This document shows positions 1,085 through 63,334 of a stretch of DNA of 64,000 nucleotides, one piece after another. The notes below the pieces were generated by a model that saw only the letters and a program-made list of their open reading frames with translations, made no database searches and was not told the DNA's origin. The translations under genes and the position numbers were made by a program. The stretch's first letter is position 1. Each line of letters opens with the position of its first letter. Source of the stretch: Candidatus Woesearchaeota archaeon (GTDB lineage: Archaea > Nanobdellota > Nanobdellia > Woesearchaeales > DSVV01); the NCBI GenBank assembly GCA_016192995.1, contig JACPTB010000001.1:253110-317109 (forward strand), given 5' to 3'.

Positions 1085-2317
1085 ATGCAGGTAGAAGAAT
1101 TACAATCAAGTTTAGATCATGATGTATTACGAATATTAGCGCGAGCTGCCTATAGAGTTGCAGTTCATGAAAGATTTTATGCTCAGCTTTATCCTTATGA
1201 AGAATGGTCAGAAGTACCTGATAGTGGTGCTTTAGATCATGTTCTTGCTCAATCGCCATTTCGAGATTTATCACCTTCAAGAGCATTAAGAAGAAAATTC
1301 TTGTCATCTGAATTAAATCCTTTTATTGATTATCCCCCCATCGAAGATAGGGTAAACGATATTCTTACTGTTTTGCATGGTTATTTAGATTTAGATCGTC
1401 ATTCATCTACCATGGCTCGAACTACTGAACGAAATATTATTTTGTTTGACGATTTTCTTAAGTATGCAACTTTGCTTGATGCTGAGTTCCCTGGAATGTT
1501 TCCTTTAGTTCGTGATCCATTCCCAACTTCTCACGGCATTTTTATTCCAGCTTTACCCTCAGTTTTTAATGCGTTTGTTAAGCGTTATGATTTGGTTTAC
1601 AAACCAAAATTTCTCCAACCTGCTCAGCCTATTGTACCCTTGCCTTTAGAACTTTATAAAGATAATCATGTAGGTGATGCTTCTTGTGGACTTTGTTACC
1701 TTGTACAAGATAAAGGTGATGATGATAAAGATGGTTTAGAATCAGGTCAATCTACTGGAGTGTCAGATCATCAGGAAGGTTCAACTGCTTTTTTTAAACG
1801 TGTTCAACGTGGTGTAGGTTTAACTTTTCAGCGTATGCCTAAGATACCTATCCCTCGTGGTTATCGCACTGATCTTTCTTATCATGATAAAGTATTATGG
1901 CGTTGTGTATTACAAGCAGAAAGAAAATTATATCAAAATCTTGTCGCGTATGTTATGGTTGATGGTAAATACTCTGTTAAGAAACTAATGCGCGATAATA
2001 ATATTCCTTTGCAAGACAATAGTCATCAACAATCCTTACAGCAATATTTCACCGCATTAGTTACTAATGGCACTCTAGATCAACAACTTATTCGTTACAT
2101 CGGAGATCTTTCTGAAGCAATAGTCAGCTTATGCAATCAAATAACATCGTCTAGAGCAAGACCAAAAGTTAAAGGTATTGTTTTATATGATGATCAATCA
2201 TTTATGCGTCAAGCAAGATCTTATGAACATCGTCTTGCAAACGTTTCTTTAGCTTTGCGTAATCGAGTTTTAAGAGAAGTAAAAGATGCTCTTTATTCAC
2301 AAGAATTTATTTTTTGA
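1085..2317 (+). CDS. Hypothetical protein, paralogue of the upstream gene
   Basis: 410 residues, soluble, unknown function. The C-terminal region (from about residue 260) parallels the upstream gene: AERKLYQNLVAYVM, later KVKGIVLYDD, and a terminal FIF. A low-complexity acidic linker (DKGDDDKDG, near residue 215) separates an N-terminal part from the shared C-terminal part. It has its own TATA box, so it may be transcribed independently of its neighbour. It converges on the NDH-2 gene with a 15 bp gap. Duplication in tandem is seen; function is not inferable from sequence alone. Confidence 0.75.
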   Translation: MQVEELQSSLDHDVLRILARAAYRVAVHERFYAQLYPYEEWSEVPDSGALDHVLAQSPFRDLSPSRALRRKFLSSELNPFIDYPPIEDRVNDILTVLHGYLDLDRHSSTMARTTERNIILFDDFLKYATLLDAEFPGMFPLVRDPFPTSHGIFIPALPSVFNAFVKRYDLVYKPKFLQPAQPIVPLPLELYKDNHVGDASCGLCYLVQDKGDDDKDGLESGQSTGVSDHQEGSTAFFKRVQRGVGLTFQRMPKIPIPRGYRTDLSYHDKVLWRCVLQAERKLYQNLVAYVMVDGKYSVKKLMRDNNIPLQDNSHQQSLQQYFTALVTNGTLDQQLIRYIGDLSEAIVSLCNQITSSRARPKVKGIVLYDDQSFMRQARSYEHRLANVSLALRNRVLREVKDALYSQEFIF

Positions 2318-6667: not shown

Positions 6668-7297
6668 TTGCACAGTATAACTAAAGAACATATGGTATTT
6701 TCTCTATTTGTTGTTCTTCTTATAGCTATTTTTGGCACTTCCTTTCTTGTTTCTGATTTTGATCCTTCAGGTAATAACATTGTAGGCAATACTATTGGTA
6801 CAGCTCGTCCTACGGTATTAAGCGATGAGCTTTGTTTTGATACTGATGGAGGTATTAATACACGCATTACCGGTATTGTAAGTTTTAAAGATAACAATTT
6901 TTTTACCGTAAATAAAGAAGATGTTTGCAGTTATAATCCTGTCACTAAAAAATATGAATTGAAAGAATACTATTGTTCTTATAACCATGATTGGGTTAAA
7001 ACAATTCCCTGCGAATATGGATGCTATGATGGAAGATGTCTTGATTCAAATACCTGCATAAGGTCGAATCCAACAGATCATGGAACATATTTAAAACGTG
7101 AGGGTTATGTTTTTAATGATTATGTTGTCTATGATGATGGCAGAAAAGAAAAACTTGTTTCTTTTTGTGATGAAGATAGTTATGTTGTTCACCCACGATG
7201 CAGTCAGCAGACAGGAACTATTTTTTATAATCGGCAGCATTGTTCTTTAAATTGTATGAAGGCAAAGACTGGCGAAGGGCATTGCGGAGATAGATAA
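6668..7297 (+). CDS. Membrane-anchored Cys-rich (DTDG-module) protein
   Basis: 209 residues with a TTG start at 6668, chosen because a purine-rich gaggg lies about six bases upstream; the in-frame ATG at 6692 is the alternative. One N-terminal membrane helix (MVFSLFVVLLIAIFGTSFLV) is followed by an extracellular module beginning LCFDTDGGINTRITG and closing CEYGCYDGRCLD, then a second Cys-rich segment (residues 130-209). It resembles the gene at 5132 and the large proteins at 14498-24677. Probably a surface protein stabilised by disulfides. It converges on the sigma-factor gene with a 25 bp gap. Confidence 0.75.
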   Translation: MHSITKEHMVFSLFVVLLIAIFGTSFLVSDFDPSGNNIVGNTIGTARPTVLSDELCFDTDGGINTRITGIVSFKDNNFFTVNKEDVCSYNPVTKKYELKEYYCSYNHDWVKTIPCEYGCYDGRCLDSNTCIRSNPTDHGTYLKREGYVFNDYVVYDDGRKEKLVSFCDEDSYVVHPRCSQQTGTIFYNRQHCSLNCMKAKTGEGHCGDR

Positions 7298-7322: not shown

Positions 7323-8936
7323 TTATTCATCTAAATATTCTTTAAGTTCATCTTTACCTCTACGAGTTCTTAATTTGTTTAATGCAGCTTTTTCAATTTG
7401 CCTGATTCTTTCTCTTGTTAAATCTAATTTACCTCCAATCTCTTCTAAAGTATGTCCATCTTTAGCTTTATCTTCATGTTGATACTCCCTGCCAACTCCA
7501 TAACGTAATCTAAGAATTTTTTCTTCTCTTTGATTCAAGGTTCTTAAAACTACGTCTATTACTCTTCCTAAATCAGCTTGTTTCTGTAATTCAATAGGAT
7601 CTACTGCTGTTTCATCTTCCATTAAATCACCCAGTTCACTATCATCGTCTCTTCCGATAGGTGTTTCAAGTGAAATTGTGTCTCTTCCTTGTTGTAATAG
7701 AGTGTCTAACCTCTCAACCGGTAGTTCGAGCTTTTCTGCTAATTCTGCTCTTGTAGGTTCTCTTCTAAGCTCTTGCTCTAATCTACTTTTTACTCTATGT
7801 ATTTTATTCAATATTTCATTTTTATGTACGCCTACGCGTATAGTTCGTCCAGTATCTGCGAGTGCTCGTGTTATTGCCTGTCGTATCCACCATGTTGCGT
7901 ACGTTGAAAATTTATATCCACGTTGATATTCAAATTTGTCTGCTGCTTTCATTAAACCTATGTTTCCTTCTTGGATTAAATCAAGAAACTGAAGCCCTCT
8001 ATTAGTATATTTTTTTGCAATACTCACTACTAATCGCAAATTTGCTCCGACAAGATTATCATATAATCTTCGATATGATCGAGCAGCGCGTGCATAAGCT
8101 GCTCTGTTTTGTTCCATATCTTCAATTATATAATCTAACAGAGGAATTCTAAAGGTTGAACCTTTTCTTTTATCGAGACCATATCTTTCACGTACTTCTC
8201 TTGTTAAAGCTTCTTTATCTTCTCTAATTCCCTTAAGATCTCTGTACGTATCTGTTACAAGTTGAGCTAGTCCTTTTTCATACTTGGTTTTTAATTGCCA
8301 TTTTTTAGCTTCAGCAAGTATCTCTTCAGTATAATGTACAATTTCTTCACTATATTTTTTTCTTGTTTTAAGATTTTTAGTTCCTACTAATTTTCTTCTT
8401 CTGCTTTTTAGATTTCTTGCATATTCTACAATTTTCCTATAAGAAGCTTCAAAATCAGCGTTAAGTTCAAGCATTATTTGTTTTTTCTTTGCATCTTCAG
8501 TTCCAGCTTCATCTTCAGAAGTCTCATTCTCAGAATCATAACCTAATCTAAAATACGTGTCAACAAAATCTTTATCTGCATGAGGTGAATCATGAGAACT
8601 TAAATACGATTCAACCCGTTCATCAACAGTATTATGTAATCTGCTAACAATTCCTCCAAAATAAAGTACAACTACATCAGCATTCCTGTACATTGCTTTA
8701 TAAGACTTGGTTCTCTCTTCACTCATTGCAGCTCCAAGTGCCTGCTCTCCTTTCCTGGTCAAGAGCGTTCTTTTTCCCATTCTCTTTAGATACACCTCTA
8801 ATGGATCATGACCATTTGAATATTGTTGATCAGTAACATCATGAGAATATCCCTTATGATTAGCTTCTTCATCTGAAATTAAAGAAAGTATATCGCCAAT
8901 AGTAATGCCTTTAGTTGTTTCTTCATCATTGTTCAT
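7323..8936 (-). CDS. rpoD: RNA polymerase primary-type sigma-70 factor
   Basis: 537 residues and apparently intact. Region 1.2 is at about 44-75 ([11 protein letters not shown]), then a charged non-conserved insert (about 80-285). Region 2 (about 290-365) has [31 protein letters not shown] and [19 protein letters not shown], which in bacteria bind core polymerase and read and melt the -10 element. Region 3 follows, and region 4 (about 455-525) ends with the -35-reading HTH ([21 protein letters not shown]). There is no region 1.1. It has a strong SD (gaggag, five bases before ATG) and a TATA-like motif at about 8979-8990. It is divergent from an archaeal L11 gene, so this is a bacterial-type factor in an archaeal context. 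The family assignment is secure; its partner polymerase here is unknown. Confidence 0.95.
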
Positions 8937-9032
8937 ACTATCTCCTCATTAAACACATTTCATGGTTTCTCTTCAATACATATAAAATTTATCCAAAACC
9001 TTTATAAACACTCAACAAATTCATGAATATTA
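8937..9032. promoter_or_regulatory. Divergent promoter region, sigma-70 and L11
   Basis: 96 bp shared region. For L11 there is a TATA box at 9001-9009 (tttataaac), about 29 nt before the ATG, implying a leaderless message. For the sigma gene, a TATA-like motif reading ttttatatgta on the minus strand is at about 8979-8990, with an SD (gaggaga) at 8941-8947. The two genes therefore use different initiation styles. No clear -35/-10 pair is visible. Confidence 0.5.
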
Positions 9033-11115: not shown

Positions 11116-11194
11116 TTTTATTCTATCCCCTTAAACTTCTAGCTATATTTATATATTCTGATTAAAATGATTAAACTTTATATAAAATGAAAAA

Positions 11195-11205
11195 GTTTAT
11201 ATATA
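11195..11205 (+). promoter_or_regulatory. TATA box before the PhoU-like regulator
   Basis: The tract gtttatatata is centred about 27 nt before the ATG at 11228. No SD is seen, which suggests a leaderless transcript. Confidence 0.5.
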
Positions 11206-11227
11206 TACTACAATAACCTTATAACTT

Positions 11228-12184
11228 ATGAAAAGAAAAGTCATTCAAATTGCAGAATCTACACAATTGATTTCTTTGCCAAGAAAATGGGCGCAGATGT
11301 TTGGCGTCAAAAAAGGAGAAGAGTTAGAACTCCAAGAAAAGGGCAATAAGTTAATTATATCAACAGAAAAAGCAATAGATATTAAAAAAATCAACGCTGA
11401 TATTTCTCTTTTAGATAGAACTTCAATCATTTTTTATATACGAAGTCTTTATAGAAAAGGTTATGATGAAATAGAACTTCATTTTTCTAATCCTTTAGTT
11501 CCTCACTTTAGAGTAGGAAATGATGTTAGTGTAATTTCAATAATTCATGAAGAAGTTCGCCGCCTACTTGGTTTTGAAATCATTCTTCAAAAAGAGAATA
11601 TGTGTGTTATTAAAGACATATCGAGCGTCTCTTTTAAAGAGTTTGAAACAGTAATGAGAAGAATTTTACGTTTATTTGTTGATGCGATGAGTGATTTTGT
11701 AAAAGGATGTAAAGAGGGAAATACCATTTTATTAGATACCATCGAAGAAAAACATGATTCTATTACACGATTTACGAGTTATGCACTTCGAATTTTAAAT
11801 AAATCTGGGTTATCAGATGAATACCATAATTCAATCGTTTATACTATTATTGTTTTTATTGATAAAATGACCGACGTCATTAAATATTCTGCTCGAGAAA
11901 TGTTAAAAGAGAATATCAAACTTTCAAAAACAAGCTGTACAGTTCTTGATTTACTATTAGAATCGTGCCAGTTGTATGACGAAATCTTTTATAAGTTTAA
12001 TAATAAAAAAGTATTTGAATTATATAATAAAAGAAATGATGCGCTTGAAATGCTTAAAAAAACACTTACGAGCTTGGGAAAACGAGAAATATGGTTTATT
12101 ACTGAAGTAAGAAATTTATTTGAATACATTGTTGCAATTACTGAAGCGCGGCTGAGTTTGCTACAGCATTTACCTGAAGAGTAA
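11228..12184 (+). CDS. AbrB-PhoU phosphate-type regulator
   Basis: 318 residues. Residues 1-45 form a SpoVT/AbrB-type swapped-hairpin DNA-binding domain (RKWAQMFGVKKGEELELQEK). The rest is helical and fits two PhoU-like bundles, as in the archaeal AbrB-PhoU fusion family, which is usually linked to phosphate uptake control. No Pst transporter lies nearby, so it may act in trans. It is transcribed from its own TATA promoter and converges with the P-loop gene at 12214. The fusion architecture is well supported; the phosphate role is inferred from the family. Confidence 0.75.
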   Translation: MKRKVIQIAESTQLISLPRKWAQMFGVKKGEELELQEKGNKLIISTEKAIDIKKINADISLLDRTSIIFYIRSLYRKGYDEIELHFSNPLVPHFRVGNDVSVISIIHEEVRRLLGFEIILQKENMCVIKDISSVSFKEFETVMRRILRLFVDAMSDFVKGCKEGNTILLDTIEEKHDSITRFTSYALRILNKSGLSDEYHNSIVYTIIVFIDKMTDVIKYSAREMLKENIKLSKTSCTVLDLLLESCQLYDEIFYKFNNKKVFELYNKRNDALEMLKKTLTSLGKREIWFITEVRNLFEYIVAITEARLSLLQHLPEE

Positions 12185-12213
12185 ACAGTAATGAAAGCAC
12201 GTTCTTTAGCATA

Positions 12214-13587
12214 CTAAGAACCATTCTTATCATAAGAACTGGTTGTACCTCGTTTAAGCGCATCATCTAGATCCTGATAAAATCTCATTACTAATCCTGG
12301 CGTCCCTGGTTTATCACTTAATGAATATCTTATGCCTCTATTCTGTTGTTGTTCTTCATAAGCATTTCCTAAGATACCAAGCACTATCTTTAATAATGTT
12401 TGTTCTTGAAAATTCAAAAAGGAGTCTTGTGTTCTTGGACCACTACCTAAATACTTAAATCCAATAATAGTATCGCCATCTTGTCTTTTAAATACAACAA
12501 AATCAATGCCATTATATGTTCTCTTAAAACCCTCGTAGGTAATCTTTTCTCTCTCTAATAGCTGTCTTAAACCGTCTTGATCTCTAATAAGTAATGGTTT
12601 AAATTGGGTTAGTTTATTTAAAATATCGGGAAGGTTTTGCCCAAATAAGCGTTCCAATTTATCTGCAACAAAGTTTTCATGAATATTCCTTGGATCAGGT
12701 TTCTGTTGATTATTTATCATGAAATCAAAGATATGTCTCTGTGCATAAAGTGCGGTTCTGCTAGCATTTCTATATCCTGTTTCATACACAGCTTGGGTAT
12801 AAAATCGAGAAGAAGGATCAATTGGGTTGGAAGTGTCTAAAACAATATCTGCATATGTGGAACTAAGCTCCATAAATTTAGAATTTAATGCCCTTACTCT
12901 TTCTGCTTCATTCTCAACTAACTTATCAAATTTGTCACGAGTTAAATCTCGTCTTCTTAGCTGTTGTCCTGAAAGAGTGTCTCGTATTCTCTTTTCAACG
13001 CGCCTATCAATTTGATCAGCATTGGTTTCATCTAGTCCAGTAATTACATATACTCCATTAGGAAAAATTTCACGTAATCTAAGAAAAGCATCTGGACATG
13101 TTGTTTGACAAACATAAAGAGGTGCAAATACCCTAGTTCTAATATCATCTGGTTTAACAAGGCTTTTATAGTTGGGTTCTAATCTTTTGAGCGGTGAAAA
13201 CGCTCTCCGCTTAATTCGATCACCTGGGGGAGGAAATGCATAGAGATTTTCTCCAAGTTCATAAGCTAGATAGTAACTTCCCTTGGTGATGCCATCTTGT
13301 AAAATATCTCTCGGTTTTGAGTCATGTGTCCGTCTTTTTCTATGGAGAACTTCATTTGGTCTTTTCTCTCGTGAAGCATGTGACCTTAAAAAAGTGACAC
13401 TAAATTCCACATCTTGAACACGCTTTTGATCTTGCAATGCTAGAAGATGGTCGATTGTTGTCGTTTTTCCCGTGCATCTTCCACCGCCAATTATTATAAC
13501 ATTAGGCGCAAAACGAACTTTCTCATCAAGTGTAGTCTCACATTCAATAAGATGTCCAAAGTCATATTGATGATGTTCTTGAACCAT
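12214..13587 (-). CDS. P-loop NTPase, guanylate-kinase-like, with extended C-terminus
   Basis: 457 residues. A Walker A motif (VIIIGGGRCTGKTTTI) is at about 30-45. SHASREKRPNEVLH near 70 resembles the GMP-binding motif of guanylate kinases, and GVYVITGLDETNADQIDRRV near 200 resembles the later GK helix. Residues 280-457 are an extra region of unknown fold with several conserved-looking aromatic stretches. This may be a nucleotide kinase or a kinase-derived regulator. I cannot name it with confidence. It is divergent from the nucleotidyltransferase at 13712, with TATA-like motifs in the 124 bp between them (one at 13682-13691 for the plus strand). Confidence 0.6.
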   Translation of the reverse strand: MVQEHHQYDFGHLIECETTLDEKVRFAPNVIIIGGGRCTGKTTTIDHLLALQDQKRVQDVEFSVTFLRSHASREKRPNEVLHRKRRTHDSKPRDILQDGITKGSYYLAYELGENLYAFPPPGDRIKRRAFSPLKRLEPNYKSLVKPDDIRTRVFAPLYVCQTTCPDAFLRLREIFPNGVYVITGLDETNADQIDRRVEKRIRDTLSGQQLRRRDLTRDKFDKLVENEAERVRALNSKFMELSSTYADIVLDTSNPIDPSSRFYTQAVYETGYRNASRTALYAQRHIFDFMINNQQKPDPRNIHENFVADKLERLFGQNLPDILNKLTQFKPLLIRDQDGLRQLLEREKITYEGFKRTYNGIDFVVFKRQDGDTIIGFKYLGSGPRTQDSFLNFQEQTLLKIVLGILGNAYEEQQQNRGIRYSLSDKPGTPGLVMRFYQDLDDALKRGTTSSYDKNGS

Positions 13588-24734: not shown

Positions 24735-24925
24735 GGCACAATCCAAAAAATGAGTGATATTGCGAAAATGCCTTCGGCAGCCACCATCGGTTCGGCTGTA
24801 GATGTTTGTTATGGAAGATGCTATCCTCTCTGGAACCTCGGATAGCATTTGATGAAACATCAGATAAGCCTCGCAAAAAAGATGGTGGCACTTTTCGCAA
24901 TATCACTTACAAATTGGATTGTGCC
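24735..24925. repeat. Modular hairpin element, type D
   Basis: 191 bp with ends ggcacaatccaaaaaatgag / ggattgtgcc. Inner palindromic modules include gcgaaaatgccttcggc and ccaccatcggttcggct, with a core bearing ctctctggaacctcg. No target duplication is evident. Confidence 0.8.
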
Positions 24926-24969
24926 TCTTTATAACAATCTTTAAATATATCTTTATGTTTGAGGTTGTT

Positions 24970-25902
24970 ATGAAAAAGAGTTTGTGGTTAGTAAACCTAT
25001 TATTTGTTTTTACGTTATTATTACTTCCTTCTGTTCTTTCTGCTGATATCGAGATTGTTTTTCCTGCTGAAGGAACTTATGGGCCATGGAGCGGGACGTA
25101 TAAAACACATGAAAGCGGAAAAGCACATTTTATTACACCAAATATCATTGTTAACAAAGAGGTTATTGACAACTATGAACTATATGATAATGGCAATTTG
25201 ATTGGAAGTTTTGAAGCTTCTGATGTTAATCCAACAACAGCGGTCATTATTGACCCTGGATTGCATACCTTTGTTGCTAAAGGTTATAAAAATAACCAAG
25301 TTGTTGGTGAAGTTCAGGTTAAGACGGATTTTGTTTTTAATTATTTTGATGTTTTCAAAAGTGTTAAAGAACTTGATCCTGTTGTCGTCAGCTTTGAAGT
25401 AACTGAAGAAGATTTTGCTCAGATTGATGCTAACCTTGAAGATTATCAAAAAACTATGGAACATGTAACTTTGAAAAAATCATTTATTCATGTCACGGTT
25501 AAGGATAAGTTTACTGGTGAAGAAAAAGAAAATACGCTTGTTGTAGTGAAAATAAGCATTGATGAAGCTGTTAAAGACTTAAAAGTTTATGAGCTTATTC
25601 CTAAAACTGTAGCTCAGCATATCAACAACCTTACGTTAATGGGGAACTACACTATTCTTGAAGAAGATCCTTTAGTTGTCTGGACTTTTGCAGGTATTGA
25701 TGCCAGCGCTGTTAAGGAATTGGAAGTCAGTTATGCAGTCAACGATTTTGTTTTAGAAGAGGATTTTGAAGAAGTCAAGACAATTCCTATTGCTGAAATT
25801 AAGCCAAAAAAGACATATTTATACTATCTTTTGCCTTTATTATTAGTTCCTATTATTATCTTTATTGTTATTTACTTTGGCAAATTTCAGAAGGAGGAAT
25901 AA
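24970..25902 (+). CDS. Secreted/anchored surface protein with C-terminal membrane helix
   Basis: 310 residues from the ATG at 24970, preceded by gaggttgtt as SD. A signal peptide (MKKSLWLVNLLFVFTLLLLP) ends near VLSA. The mature part is a beta-rich ectodomain with no recognised family (residues 24-275), then a C-terminal membrane helix (YLYYLLPLLLVPIIIFIVIY) and a short charged tail (FGKFQKEE). The topology is that of a type I surface protein. It lies between the type D element and the DEAD-box gene, and its role is unknown. Confidence 0.7.
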   Translation: MKKSLWLVNLLFVFTLLLLPSVLSADIEIVFPAEGTYGPWSGTYKTHESGKAHFITPNIIVNKEVIDNYELYDNGNLIGSFEASDVNPTTAVIIDPGLHTFVAKGYKNNQVVGEVQVKTDFVFNYFDVFKSVKELDPVVVSFEVTEEDFAQIDANLEDYQKTMEHVTLKKSFIHVTVKDKFTGEEKENTLVVVKISIDEAVKDLKVYELIPKTVAQHINNLTLMGNYTILEEDPLVVWTFAGIDASAVKELEVSYAVNDFVLEEDFEEVKTIPIAEIKPKKTYLYYLLPLLLVPIIIFIVIYFGKFQKEE

Positions 25903-42320: not shown

Positions 42321-45300
42321 ATGACTCGAGCAATATTAGAACAAATAGTAGATGGAATAAAAAGGCATGATAAAGATAGTGTGCTTTCTGGTTTGAATAG
42401 TGTTTGGACTGGAAGCGGTCAGTTAGCGATAAGCAATCTTGATGATATAACTTTTGATTATTTAACTAATGATGTTAAAAGAGTTCTTGGTTTAAGAACA
42501 GTGCATGAATTGAGATCAGTATTAATCGATGCCGAAGTGCTCAGCAATGATTTAGCACAATATGATCCTGCAGAACAAGAGCGCATTTTAGCAGGAGTAA
42601 TAGCTAAGCGTTCTCATCCAAAATTCGAATCAGCTTATTTTGATCCAGAATTAGGTGAAACAAAATTAGAAGAAAACAGAAGAAAGTTGGTTAAAAATCC
42701 TACATTTAAAAAAATGTTAGATGCAAGCGGCATAAGATGCTTAGATGATATAGAAAAAACAACAATTAGTTATGGATTAAACAAAGTATTAGGTATTGAC
42801 TCGAAAGGAATACAGGTAACGCGTTTTAGAGAAAGAATGGTTGAGTTAGGATATTTTACCTATGATTTAAGTGATTATGCTGACGAAGATAAAGAACATG
42901 TTGGAGAAATAGTGATTAGATCTTTTTCAACAAGGAAAGTATCAGAATATTTTTCAGAAGAAAGACCCGAATCGGTTTTGGCAAAAAACAGGTGTATATT
43001 CTTAGAAACCAGTGTATTTAAAAAATATATTGAACAAAAGAATATCAAGTCTCTGGATGACATTGAAACAGATACTTTTGAAGATGGATTTTCGTTGGTC
43101 ATAGGAGCGAAAAAAAGATCAGTCCCTGCTTTTATGGCTGCATTAATCGACTATGGTTGTCTTCCAAGTAACATTGAAGATTATTCCCCTGAAAATCAAG
43201 ATAGAATTGTTGCCGGAATTATTTCCAGTTTTAATACAGCAGTACATTCGTATTATCTTGCTCATGAAGTTTTGAGCGAAGCTCAGAGAGAGAAAAATAG
43301 AGCATTCTTAATGAAGAGAAAAGAATTCAGGGCATTCCTTGAAGTGCAGGGCGTAATTTGCCTTGATGATATTACGGCGAATGTACCTGCTGGTTCAGTG
43401 TCTAACCAGCTCAATTGCAAGTCGTATAAACAACTCAGGAATAAATTAGCTGAAGTAGGTTATTTTAATATTAACTTGAGTGGATATGATGCTGAAGAAA
43501 GAGAAATAATTGTTCGGAAAATTCTTACTCAAAGATTAGCGCGTACTGAAAGTTCAGCATATCTTGATGAAGACCTTGAAGAAAAAGTAAAAGAGGATAA
43601 CAGAAATGCAATTATAGCTTCGCAAGCATTTAAAGATCACCTTAAAGAACATAGAATTATGAGTTTAGATAATATAAGACGCCATGCACATACTTATGGA
43701 AGTATTACTTATTTCATTGGAGAAACTAAACCTCAAAAAGTAAAAAGTAAGTTGATCGAAGCAGGAACATTTAGCGAAAGTCTTGCTGATTACACACCTG
43801 AAGATCAGGAGTTTATTACTAAACAAATCATTGATAATCTTGAAGTAGGAAATACTACTAGTGCTTATGCTGTAGCAACATTGTCTCCTGATATTTTAGA
43901 ACTCAATAAAAAAATTATCTTAGGATCAGCGGCATTTAAAGAATTCCTTAAACAGCATAACGTTTTTTCTCTGGATGATATTGAATCGAGAACATTTGGA
44001 AAAGGACTTTGCGCGTTGCTAGGAACAACTATTGGATCTTCAGAAAAAGAAAAAGAAGCTTTGGTAAGATATGGTGTTTTCAGTTATAGACTTAAAGAAT
44101 ATGCTTCTGAAACACAAGAAAATATATGTAAACAAATAGTTGAAGATTTGGAAAAATCAAAACAACTCTCAGTTTATTTTTCAGATGAACGTGATGCCGA
44201 AATAGTAGATGAAAATCGAGCTCTATTTGCGCAAAGCAAAGCATTTAAAGAGTACCGTGATAAAAATGGTTGGAAAACATTAGATCATATTCAGCATCCT
44301 AATCTCAAAAGAGCAATAACTTCAATAATGGGTTGCGTAGTTTCAGTAAATGAATTAAGAGATATCTTAGTAAAATATGGCGCTTACAATTATAAATTGC
44401 AAGAAGAAGAACCTTCACTGCTTGAAGCAGCAGCTTGTAAAATAATTGAATCTGCAAAAAATAGAAAAGATCAAAACAAGTCAAGTTATTTTAATGATGA
44501 TTTAGATCATGAAATAATTGATGACAATCAATTAGCTATATTAGGAACAAGATCTGCGCAAGAATTTTTAGCAGAAGAAGGCGCTTCTCTCGATGATTTA
44601 ACTACTCTTTCATTTAATGCAAGAAGATTTCTTACTAAAATTAAAGTTATTGATCAGATTCCCTCAAGAAAATCAGATCGCAGAACACGTAAAGCTTCAT
44701 ATAGAATGATCCAAAAAGAATGGCAGCCTGATGAAGAAAGAGCATTGTATGCTTTAGCTGAATCTTTTAGAGAAGATACTGATGCGCTTATTACAGAGAT
44801 CAGAGGAAATAAAACAAGATATCAAGAACAATTGGGTGTTAGTGTTAATGCGATCTATTCTAAAATGGAACGACTTGGCATTCTACCCGAAACAAATCAA
44901 GCAAATAGAACTACTGCAGACAGATCAGGAATAGTATATCCTTTTCCACAAATACATCATGATGAATATCCAGGTGTTCTTAATCTATTCAGAAATGTAA
45001 GTGTGTTATTGGGTAAAAATAGCCTTCCACAATATGTACCATTAGTTGGTTATGATTCTGCAACACATGAACAATTTCATCATGCTACACTGCCGATTAG
45101 ATTCAAAGGAATAGAAATTAACGATTATACATCTGCGGAACAAGAAGTAATTGCTGTTGTTAATAGATATATTTCAGATAATAGTTATTGGATAAGAAGA
45201 GCTAATGGAGATATAGAAGTGCCTACCTTGATTGAACTTGAAGATCCACGAATAATTGCAAGGCATGATGCTATTACCGATAGAACCTACGTAGAACTTG

Positions 45301-45419
45301 TATTCAGAAAAAGATTTAATCCAAATAATCTTACCGACACGGTCGCATTAATTCATGGTAGAACTGAATATTTGCATTTTAAACATGATGGAGAAGTAAC
45401 GTTTGAACGTACTAATTAA
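42321..45419 (+). CDS. 1032-residue helical repeat protein with SANT/Myb-like domain
   Basis: Eight degenerate repeats of about 95 residues fill residues 1-790; each contains an LDDI/LDNI-type turn (NLDDI, CLDDI, SLDDI, CLDDI, SLDNI, SLDDI, TLDHI, SLDDL) with flanking charged helices (for example SAYLDEDLEEKVKEDNRNAI). A helix-turn-helix-like segment WQPDEERALYALAES follows at about 795-860 and resembles SANT/Myb. The rest (860-1032) is a mixed alpha/beta tail. There is no signal or membrane helix. Possibly DNA- or chromatin-associated; not recognised as any named family. Confidence 0.65.
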   Translation: MTRAILEQIVDGIKRHDKDSVLSGLNSVWTGSGQLAISNLDDITFDYLTNDVKRVLGLRTVHELRSVLIDAEVLSNDLAQYDPAEQERILAGVIAKRSHPKFESAYFDPELGETKLEENRRKLVKNPTFKKMLDASGIRCLDDIEKTTISYGLNKVLGIDSKGIQVTRFRERMVELGYFTYDLSDYADEDKEHVGEIVIRSFSTRKVSEYFSEERPESVLAKNRCIFLETSVFKKYIEQKNIKSLDDIETDTFEDGFSLVIGAKKRSVPAFMAALIDYGCLPSNIEDYSPENQDRIVAGIISSFNTAVHSYYLAHEVLSEAQREKNRAFLMKRKEFRAFLEVQGVICLDDITANVPAGSVSNQLNCKSYKQLRNKLAEVGYFNINLSGYDAEEREIIVRKILTQRLARTESSAYLDEDLEEKVKEDNRNAIIASQAFKDHLKEHRIMSLDNIRRHAHTYGSITYFIGETKPQKVKSKLIEAGTFSESLADYTPEDQEFITKQIIDNLEVGNTTSAYAVATLSPDILELNKKIILGSAAFKEFLKQHNVFSLDDIESRTFGKGLCALLGTTIGSSEKEKEALVRYGVFSYRLKEYASETQENICKQIVEDLEKSKQLSVYFSDERDAEIVDENRALFAQSKAFKEYRDKNGWKTLDHIQHPNLKRAITSIMGCVVSVNELRDILVKYGAYNYKLQEEEPSLLEAAACKIIESAKNRKDQNKSSYFNDDLDHEIIDDNQLAILGTRSAQEFLAEEGASLDDLTTLSFNARRFLTKIKVIDQIPSRKSDRRTRKASYRMIQKEWQPDEERALYALAESFREDTDALITEIRGNKTRYQEQLGVSVNAIYSKMERLGILPETNQANRTTADRSGIVYPFPQIHHDEYPGVLNLFRNVSVLLGKNSLPQYVPLVGYDSATHEQFHHATLPIRFKGIEINDYTSAEQEVIAVVNRYISDNSYWIRRANGDIEVPTLIELEDPRIIARHDAITDRTYVELVFRKRFNPNNLTDTVALIHGRTEYLHFKHDGEVTFERTN

Positions 45420-61393: not shown

Positions 61394-63010
<1,617 letters not shown>

Positions 63011-63061: not shown

Positions 63062-63334
63062 TTATTCAAGCTTTGCAAGAATACTTTTGAATTCTACAAA
63101 AACATATTTCTGCTGATTAAGTTCAATTTCTTCGTTGCTGTATCCTCCATACAAAACACGATCTCCTTTTTTCAAAGGCAGTTCTTTGCCATCTTTAAAT
63201 GTGCCAACTGCTTCAACAATACCTTCCTTTCGTTCTTCTTTAGCTGATTCAGGAATATATAAGCCGCCTTTTGTTTTTTCTTCTTTAGTAACAGGTTTTA
63301 GTAACACTCGTTCTCCCAATGGTTTAATGTTCAT
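63062..63334 (-). CDS. groS: Co-chaperonin GroES
   Basis: 90 residues. The co-chaperonin that caps GroEL. The start MNIKPLGERVLLKPVTKEEK, the mobile loop KTKGGLYIPESAKE and DRVLYGGYSNEEI are typical. A strong SD (aggaggt) lies just before the ATG. It is first in the groES-groEL operon. I see no CIRCE-type operator. A hairpin element lies about 100 bp upstream. Confidence 0.96.
   Translation of the reverse strand: MNIKPLGERVLLKPVTKEEKTKGGLYIPESAKEERKEGIVEAVGTFKDGKELPLKKGDRVLYGGYSNEEIELNQQKYVFVEFKSILAKLE

Follow-up and report, generated by a model that had tools for sequence, protein, structure and literature searches.

A sigma-70-family protein in a woesearchaeal genome with a conserved docking patch and an apparently unmatched archaeal RNA polymerase

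What does a sigma factor do in a cell whose promoters carry TATA boxes? Transcription starts with sigma in bacteria and with TBP and TFB/TFIIB in archaea and eukaryotes, and a conserved sigma in a TATA-promoter cell is a natural test of whether both systems can share one polymerase. A sigma factor in archaea is reportedly already mentioned in the 2013 'microbial dark matter' report. The locus examined here lies in a stretch of 64,000 nucleotides (the window; C1:253110-317109) of a Candidatus Woesearchaeota genome (G000; 1.62 Mb in 16 contigs, 99.6% complete, 1.66% contaminated), in which a sequence-only reading had noted a complete primary-type sigma-70 factor and had stated that complete bacterial-like sigma factors are reported from uncultivated archaea. 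That statement holds: sigma-70 genes in Woesearchaeota and other DPANN were published in 2021 as fam00359 (PMC8204110), so the present gene is of a known kind, and it sits in the same TBP/TFB-type archaeal setting; the part of that paper available to us rules out mis-binning and places DPANN sigma-70 beside TBP, TFB and TFE. Relative to that part, the residue-level, polymerase-side and promoter tests are found only in the present analysis.

We find the open reading frame unbroken at exactly 7323-8936 on the minus strand, encoding 537 residues with no internal stop codons (sigma 1), and confirm its identity by Pfam, by solved relatives and by structure comparison. Region 1.2 matches at residues 44-73 (8718-8807; PF00140 Sigma70_r1_2, E 4.9e-5, 23.6 bits against a cut-off of 22), region 2 at residues 295-364 (7845-8054; PF04542, 1.8e-23, 82.5 bits against 24), region 3 at residues 376-449 (7590-7811; PF04539, 8.6e-24, 83.9 bits against 25.3) and region 4 at residues 463-523 (7368-7550; PF04545, 4.2e-15, 55.4 bits against 24.1), all on the minus strand and with nucleotide coordinates converted from residue numbers. 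Regions 2, 3 and 4 all exceed the Pfam cut-offs, and domain and residue comparisons identify a sigma-70-family protein. Among solved structures, bacterial RpoD/SigA proteins are closest (top 2.6e-83). An AlphaFold2 model built with 29 aligned sequences (mean pLDDT 80.7) finds as its top structure match chain F of 6xl5, an E. coli polymerase complex (E 1.8e-21), which we take to be sigma70; with a TM-score of only 0.39 and an rmsd of 17.6, the domains are presumably arranged differently in the model and in the 6xl5 sigma chain.

How far sigma 1 resembles a primary sigma is a question of build. As in group 1 (RpoD/SigA), regions 1.2, 2, 3 and 4 are all present, and in the model a helical non-conserved region follows region 1.2. 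Residues 1-43, where region 1.1 would be, have no Pfam match, and most of them are modelled with low confidence; the NCBIfam RpoD equivalog scores 406.9 bits against a cut-off of 555, and RpoD_Cterm 306.3 against 354. Unlike RpoD/SigA, sigma 1 also carries an insert in the 4.1-4.2 loop of region 4 relative to E. coli, and has a long branch. The description as complete and primary-type thus holds for the intact gene and its four regions and fails as an RpoD assignment: because region 1.1 was not found and the RpoD cut-off was missed, 'primary-type' denotes a build, and we assign sigma 1 neither to RpoD nor to the anti-phage sigma MzaA.

Both the DNA-reading residues and the patch by which sigma docks on the bacterial beta-prime clamp are conserved. 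Identity of sigma 1 to E. coli RpoD is 18/24 in region 2.1, 16/16 in 2.2 (the clamp-docking patch, residues 316-331, 7944-7991, minus strand; E. coli 400-415), 19/21 in 2.3, 11/17 in 2.4, 18/46 in 3.0/3.1, 16/31 in 3.2, 10/25 in 4.1 and 20/31 in 4.2. All four clamp contacts, D403, Q406, E407 and N409 (E. coli numbering, here and below), are kept, as are F427, T429, Y430, W433, W434, Q437, T440 and R441. Every residue checked in 2.3 and 2.4 is as in E. coli (melting and -10 helix by alignment to RpoD, residues 343-357, 7866-7910, minus strand), and the -35 recognition helix TRERIRQIE (residues 507-515, 7392-7418, minus strand, same alignment) keeps R584, E585, R588 and Q589. Beyond this helix K593 is replaced by A and R596 by N; changes at functional positions chosen beforehand also include P453 to G, D513 to R and H518 to E. 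The earlier statement that the DNA-reading residues look conserved is thereby upheld, for all checked residues of 2.3 and 2.4 and for most of those reading the -35 element.

Across 33 archaeal sigmas, mostly best-scoring loci and biased to conserved sigmas, many weaker loci having been left unaligned, mean identity to E. coli is 0.61 in 2.1, 0.73 in 2.2, 0.73 in 2.3, 0.67 in 2.4, 0.32 in 3.0/3.1, 0.36 in 3.2, 0.40 in 4.1 and 0.66 in 4.2. These rows are sigma 1 and 32 others, left from 36 cores once a duplicate and three weak second copies had been set aside; alignment A1 additionally omits L030 and L031. The corresponding means for 14 viral-contig sigmas, picked by region 2 motifs and leaning still more strongly to conservation there, are 0.61, 0.79, 0.70, 0.65, 0.34, 0.38, 0.44 and 0.65, so that conservation falls on the same regions in both sets. 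Of the archaeal sigmas, 25 of 33 retain the complete set of four clamp contacts, 28 all of five melting residues and 32 all of four residues in the -35 helix; the clamp contacts have an average conservation of 0.90, and the other polar residues in region 2 one of 0.49 (4 vs 22 positions, Mann-Whitney p 0.004), a comparison that draws in part on our own assumption of which region 2 residues touch DNA. A second sigma of G000 (sigma 2; 639 aa, core C1:153950-154621, L032:8263-10182, 47% identity to sigma 1) keeps D403 and the main -10 and -35 residues, and has lost Q406, E407 and N409. The contact list (403, 406, 407, 409) comes from the accessible part of PMC8321222, according to which substitutions at the 2.2 contacts do no more than reduce binding, their main effect reaching 2.3 and 2.4 through allostery; the kept 2.2 patch is therefore no proof of docking and could serve DNA binding.

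Within the order, 90 of 287 genomes have a sigma match (62 of 169 when only good genomes are counted), and within the family 9 of 11 do. Pfam region 2 finds a match in 100 of 279 genomes of the phylum (96 of the 100 over the family cut-off), the single-contig genomes G010 and G298 among them. In 14 control genomes, region 2 matched all 10 bacteria and none of the 4 archaea; a search of the genome contigs with the sigma 1 protein alone found no relative. Contig C1 (323,765 bases) also carries the archaeal rpo operon and sigma 2, and GC is level across the window (0.31-0.38). We see no sign of chimerism, a concern that the sequence-only reading had raised, and a chimeric contig is very unlikely because sigma-70 is so widely carried in the order and phylum, twice in single-contig genomes.

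The polymerase side presents a different picture. G000 has one Rpb1_1 match, which is archaeal. The clamp coil of this Rpo1' keeps R278 and I291 and has L for M298; at E. coli R275, R281, L282, L285, E295 and A302 it carries I, E, N, A, L and H. Across 50 genomes (22 of them sigma-positive and 28 sigma-negative, the latter including G001, which has a Pfam region 2 match) the coil hardly varies. The E. coli residue is found at none of these six positions in any genome, and the two groups are alike there. Coil identity to E. coli is 13.4/48 in sigma-positive and 13.7 in sigma-negative genomes (p 0.02) and is thus not higher where a sigma is present. The flap-tip stretch, which holds region 4 of sigma, falls in an eight-residue gap in the cell's own Rpo2, as seen in G000 alone. 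For a bacterial-type holoenzyme, then, the partner residues R275, E295 and A302 and the flap-tip are missing from the cell's own polymerase, and these observations lend no support to the adapted polymerase that had been suggested for this genome. In E. coli each of the single changes R275Q, E295K and A302D impairs the holoenzyme, and flap-tip absence is common in archaea, as stated in the available portion of PMC8321222; the sigma-clamp interface lists are taken from the accessible parts of that paper and of PMC10216364.

Since the 2.2 contacts are kept while the coil residues differ and the flap-tip falls in a gap, sigma appears to have retained a docking surface without an apparent counterpart on the cell's own polymerase. 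This docking mismatch, the sigma side kept and the cell's own polymerase side different, seems to be what is new here: we found no paper on it by title or abstract in a search mostly without subscription papers, and it is absent from the part of PMC8204110 available to us. It sharpens a catalogue entry into a question, namely what, if anything, region 2.2 binds; an unsuspected archaeal clamp contact and a bacterial polymerase as partner would each be new.

The promoters of G000 look archaeal, as the sequence-only reading had said of most of them. In 222 upstream regions, from 337 kb or 21% of the genome, TATA-type hexamers are most frequent 21-40 nt ahead of the start codon (TTTATA 51/117), which is the dominant, archaeal pattern in this sampled fifth; together with the single archaeal-type Rpb1_1 match and TFB, it defines the archaeal setting. 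The gene is indeed divergent from that for ribosomal protein L11 (9033-9767, plus strand; Pfam L11 N and RNA-binding domains), across an intergenic stretch of 96 bp (8937-9032). Read from the sequence, this stretch holds a Shine-Dalgarno GAGGAGAT (8940-8947) and a TATA-like box AATTTTATAT (8980-8989) on the sigma side and a TATA box CTTTATAAAC (9000-9009) on the L11 side, an annotation guided by the position peak of TATA hexamers.

Bacterial promoter motifs stand at chance. Pairs of the bacterial consensus TTGACA/TATAAT with spacers of 15-19, counted at 10 or more of 12 matches, occur in 22 of the 222 upstream regions, against 23.8 +- 6.1 for 60 permuted motifs; in the whole of G000, at spacer 17 and one mismatch, there are 33 -35/-10 pairs against 35 in a reversed control. 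The real/control ratio is 1.42 in 38 sigma-positive genomes (G001, G059, G065 and G076 counted among them by region 2 match) and 1.35 in 61 sigma-negative ones (p 0.33). The genome-wide -35/-10 promoters of a housekeeping sigma are thus not seen as any enrichment of the bacterial consensus, and the dedicated regulon that had been proposed was not detected in the 222 regions or genome-wide. Because the pairs are at chance in both samples, a broad sigma-70 regulon with the bacterial consensus seems unlikely; few promoters, a small regulon or an altered motif are possible.

Of the two archaeal factors looked for, TFB is present in G000 and TBP has no match there. Across the order TBP is present in 135 of 145 genomes, and among the good genomes in 99 of 102; the three exceptions among these are G000, G036 and G133, two of which have sigma. 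MCM and an RPA-like gene adjoin TBP in five of six relatives compared, and neither has a real match in G000. That sigma replaces TBP was considered and rejected, given the concurrent lack of MCM and the RPA-like gene, the TATA peak and the wide occurrence of TBP in the order. One assembly gap likely explains all three missing genes in this 99.6% complete genome; a gap beside RNase Z/endA was not borne out, as other genes follow endA on contig C15.

Sigma 1 is distant from its relatives. The nearest archaeal ones found share 37-39% identity over most of the length; when the core is taken by itself the figure rises to as much as 56%, and among the matches listed bacterial RpoD reaches 60% there. 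No close orthologue was found among the 11 family genomes. A tree of 72 sigma cores (33 archaeal, 25 of 80 listed bacterial matches, which are mostly Pseudomonadota, and 14 of 80 listed viral loci) is poorly resolved, with long archaeal end branches: 1.11 for sigma 1 and up to 2.7 for others, against about 0.01-0.4 in bacteria. The phylogeny is informative in that the long branch of sigma 1 argues for a transfer from bacteria that was probably not recent, and uninformative as to the donor, none being nameable from this tree. Two orthologous sigma pairs of G232 and G242 have dS/dN of 0.26/0.090 and 0.91/0.295 (dN/dS about 0.35 and 0.32), and two genes adjoining these sigmas 0.54/0.107 and 0.74/0.033; by these values the sigma pairs appear to be under purifying selection, weaker than that on the adjoining genes.

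One sigma locus has a gene order common to G143, G232 and G242. When the first 30 kb of the window are compared with 20 other sigma loci, only three gene families besides sigma recur: L11 (G184, 1.2 kb from its sigma), the protein at 6668-7297 (G082) and that at 24919-25902 (G107). We rejected these as meaningful linkage, each being found in one locus and coincidence being likely. The sigmas of relatives (up to 1741 aa) have long extensions at the N- or C-terminus, in which short modules are apparently repeated (L033:7731-11060 and 11193-13463; L036; L043), and no Pfam families besides the sigma regions were found in L033, L036 and L043. In both G232 and G242, a gene next to sigma shows a match to its C-terminal part. 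In L033 (G232:C6), sigma and a 756-aa gene lie inside the TBP-MCM-RPA / endA / RNase Z block, which is unbroken in G143. Homologous proteins of an unknown family are encoded directly downstream of sigma at L038:10061-11305 and L048:10504-12444 (G082 and G265, of different families) and are possible partners or regulators of sigma.

We tentatively favour, with somewhat less than even confidence, the reading that sigma 1 serves alongside TBP/TFB as an accessory factor in initiation or regulation, and we infer its polymerase contact, as well as its DNA binding, expression and regulon. On this view, a sigma-70-family protein with a group-1-like build (1.2-2-3-4) came from bacteria in a transfer that was not recent and was retained alongside TBP/TFB; it would read a -35/-10-like site with regions 4.2 and 2.4, capture the non-template strand with region 2.3 and touch, with region 2.2, the clamp coil of the archaeal RNA polymerase, the sole polymerase found in the cell. 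The outcome would be a small special set of start sites, with TBP/TFB not replaced. The strongest point against this accessory factor, and also the most interesting, is the lack of the partner residues; the flap-tip gap, the chance level of -35/-10 pairs, the changes at P453, K593 and R596, and a sigma 2 with one of four contacts add to it.

The same points bear on a second explanation, that sigma 1 is a sigma-derived DNA-binding regulator that no longer acts via RNA polymerase and binds -10/-35-like DNA or bubbles, activating or blocking nearby archaeal promoters. An archaeal polymerase without the bacterial contact residues, and in G000 without the flap-tip stretch, is what such a regulator would allow, and the loss of three of the four clamp contacts in sigma 2 fits it too. 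Large parts outside the sigma regions in ten scanned sigmas of 639-1741 aa (partly chosen by length, and with mechanical starts) also point this way, and the allostery on 2.3/2.4 described in the part of PMC8321222 at hand could keep the patch without docking. Against it, the four clamp contacts are retained in three quarters of the archaeal rows, 25 of 33, and region 2.2 of sigma 1 is fully identical to that of E. coli, while regions 3 and 4.1 have diverged (0.32-0.40) hardly more than in the viral-contig sigmas (0.34-0.44). We consider this regulator unlikely, if a serious competitor.

Retention of a bacterial docking surface in a cell whose own polymerase lacks the partner residues also raises the idea that sigma 1 acts on a bacterial RNA polymerase, either exported into a partner or prey cell or on DNA destined for one, which we judge distinctly unlikely. 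Its profile resembles that of the viral-contig sigmas, which presumably serve a bacterial polymerase; but those rows were found by region 2 motifs, so that the profile leans to conservation there. No export signal is apparent by eye in sigma 1, and no bacterial partner is known. Bacterial hosts of some DPANN remain to be seen, in the words of the part of PMC8204110 available to us, and region 2.2 could again be kept by allostery (PMC8321222, accessible part). It is a shade more doubtful still that the docking face is tuned to a bacterial polymerase and that sigma, delivered to or meeting a partner's polymerase, redirects its transcription; if true, one domain of life would reprogram the transcription of another.

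A role in defence or mobile-element biology, like that of the MzaA sigma of the MZA anti-phage system or of phage-borne sigmas, is improbable. The MZA system consists of the MzaA sigma with MutL, Z1 and AIPR. NCBIfam MzaA (NF041931) aligns to residues 32-537 of sigma 1, but at 318 bits against a cut-off of 800; the PADLOC MzaA match is restricted to the shared sigma core, and none of ten scanned window proteins is MutL, Z1 or AIPR. A HATPase_c_3 (MutL/Hsp90-like) gene adjoins sigma in G261 (L041:12065-14446) and G155 (L042:6320-8359), which to us recalls the sigma and MutL pairing of MZA, and the patchy distribution and divergent sequences of the sigmas would suit such a role. Sigma-70 relatives are common in viral contigs among the matches listed, and phage and viral-contig sigmas resemble sigma 1 in divergence and region profile; sigma 1, in contrast, is chromosomal, and among the ten scanned window proteins only a Bro-N protein suggests mobile elements.

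An assembly or binning artefact, or a recent and decaying bacterial gene, is hardly credible: core identity to bacterial RpoD (among the matches listed) does exceed that to the nearest archaeal sigma, but the contig is shared with archaeal rpo genes and sigma 2, the genome is nearly complete, with little contamination and even GC, single-contig genomes also have region 2, and the gene has no internal stops and a long branch.

Several observations lie apart from sigma itself. In G111, a genome without a sigma match, a second Rpb1_1 match (C1:4757-5863, in a 1211-aa frame) is possibly a bacterial-like or viral polymerase, or contamination. In the window, 42321-45419 (plus strand) encodes a protein of 1032 aa in which tandem repeats about 130 aa long can be counted by eye and which matches no Pfam family and has no relative in the archaeal loci compared, and 142-1026 and 1085-2317 (plus strand) encode adjacent, mutually related proteins without a Pfam match. 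A cpn60 gene at 61394-63004 (minus strand; Pfam) looks by eye like bacterial-type GroEL, and upstream of it lies a GroES-like frame at about 63062-63334 (minus strand), with Shine-Dalgarno sequences present; GroEL/ES in Woesearchaeota is also reported in the available part of PMC8204110.
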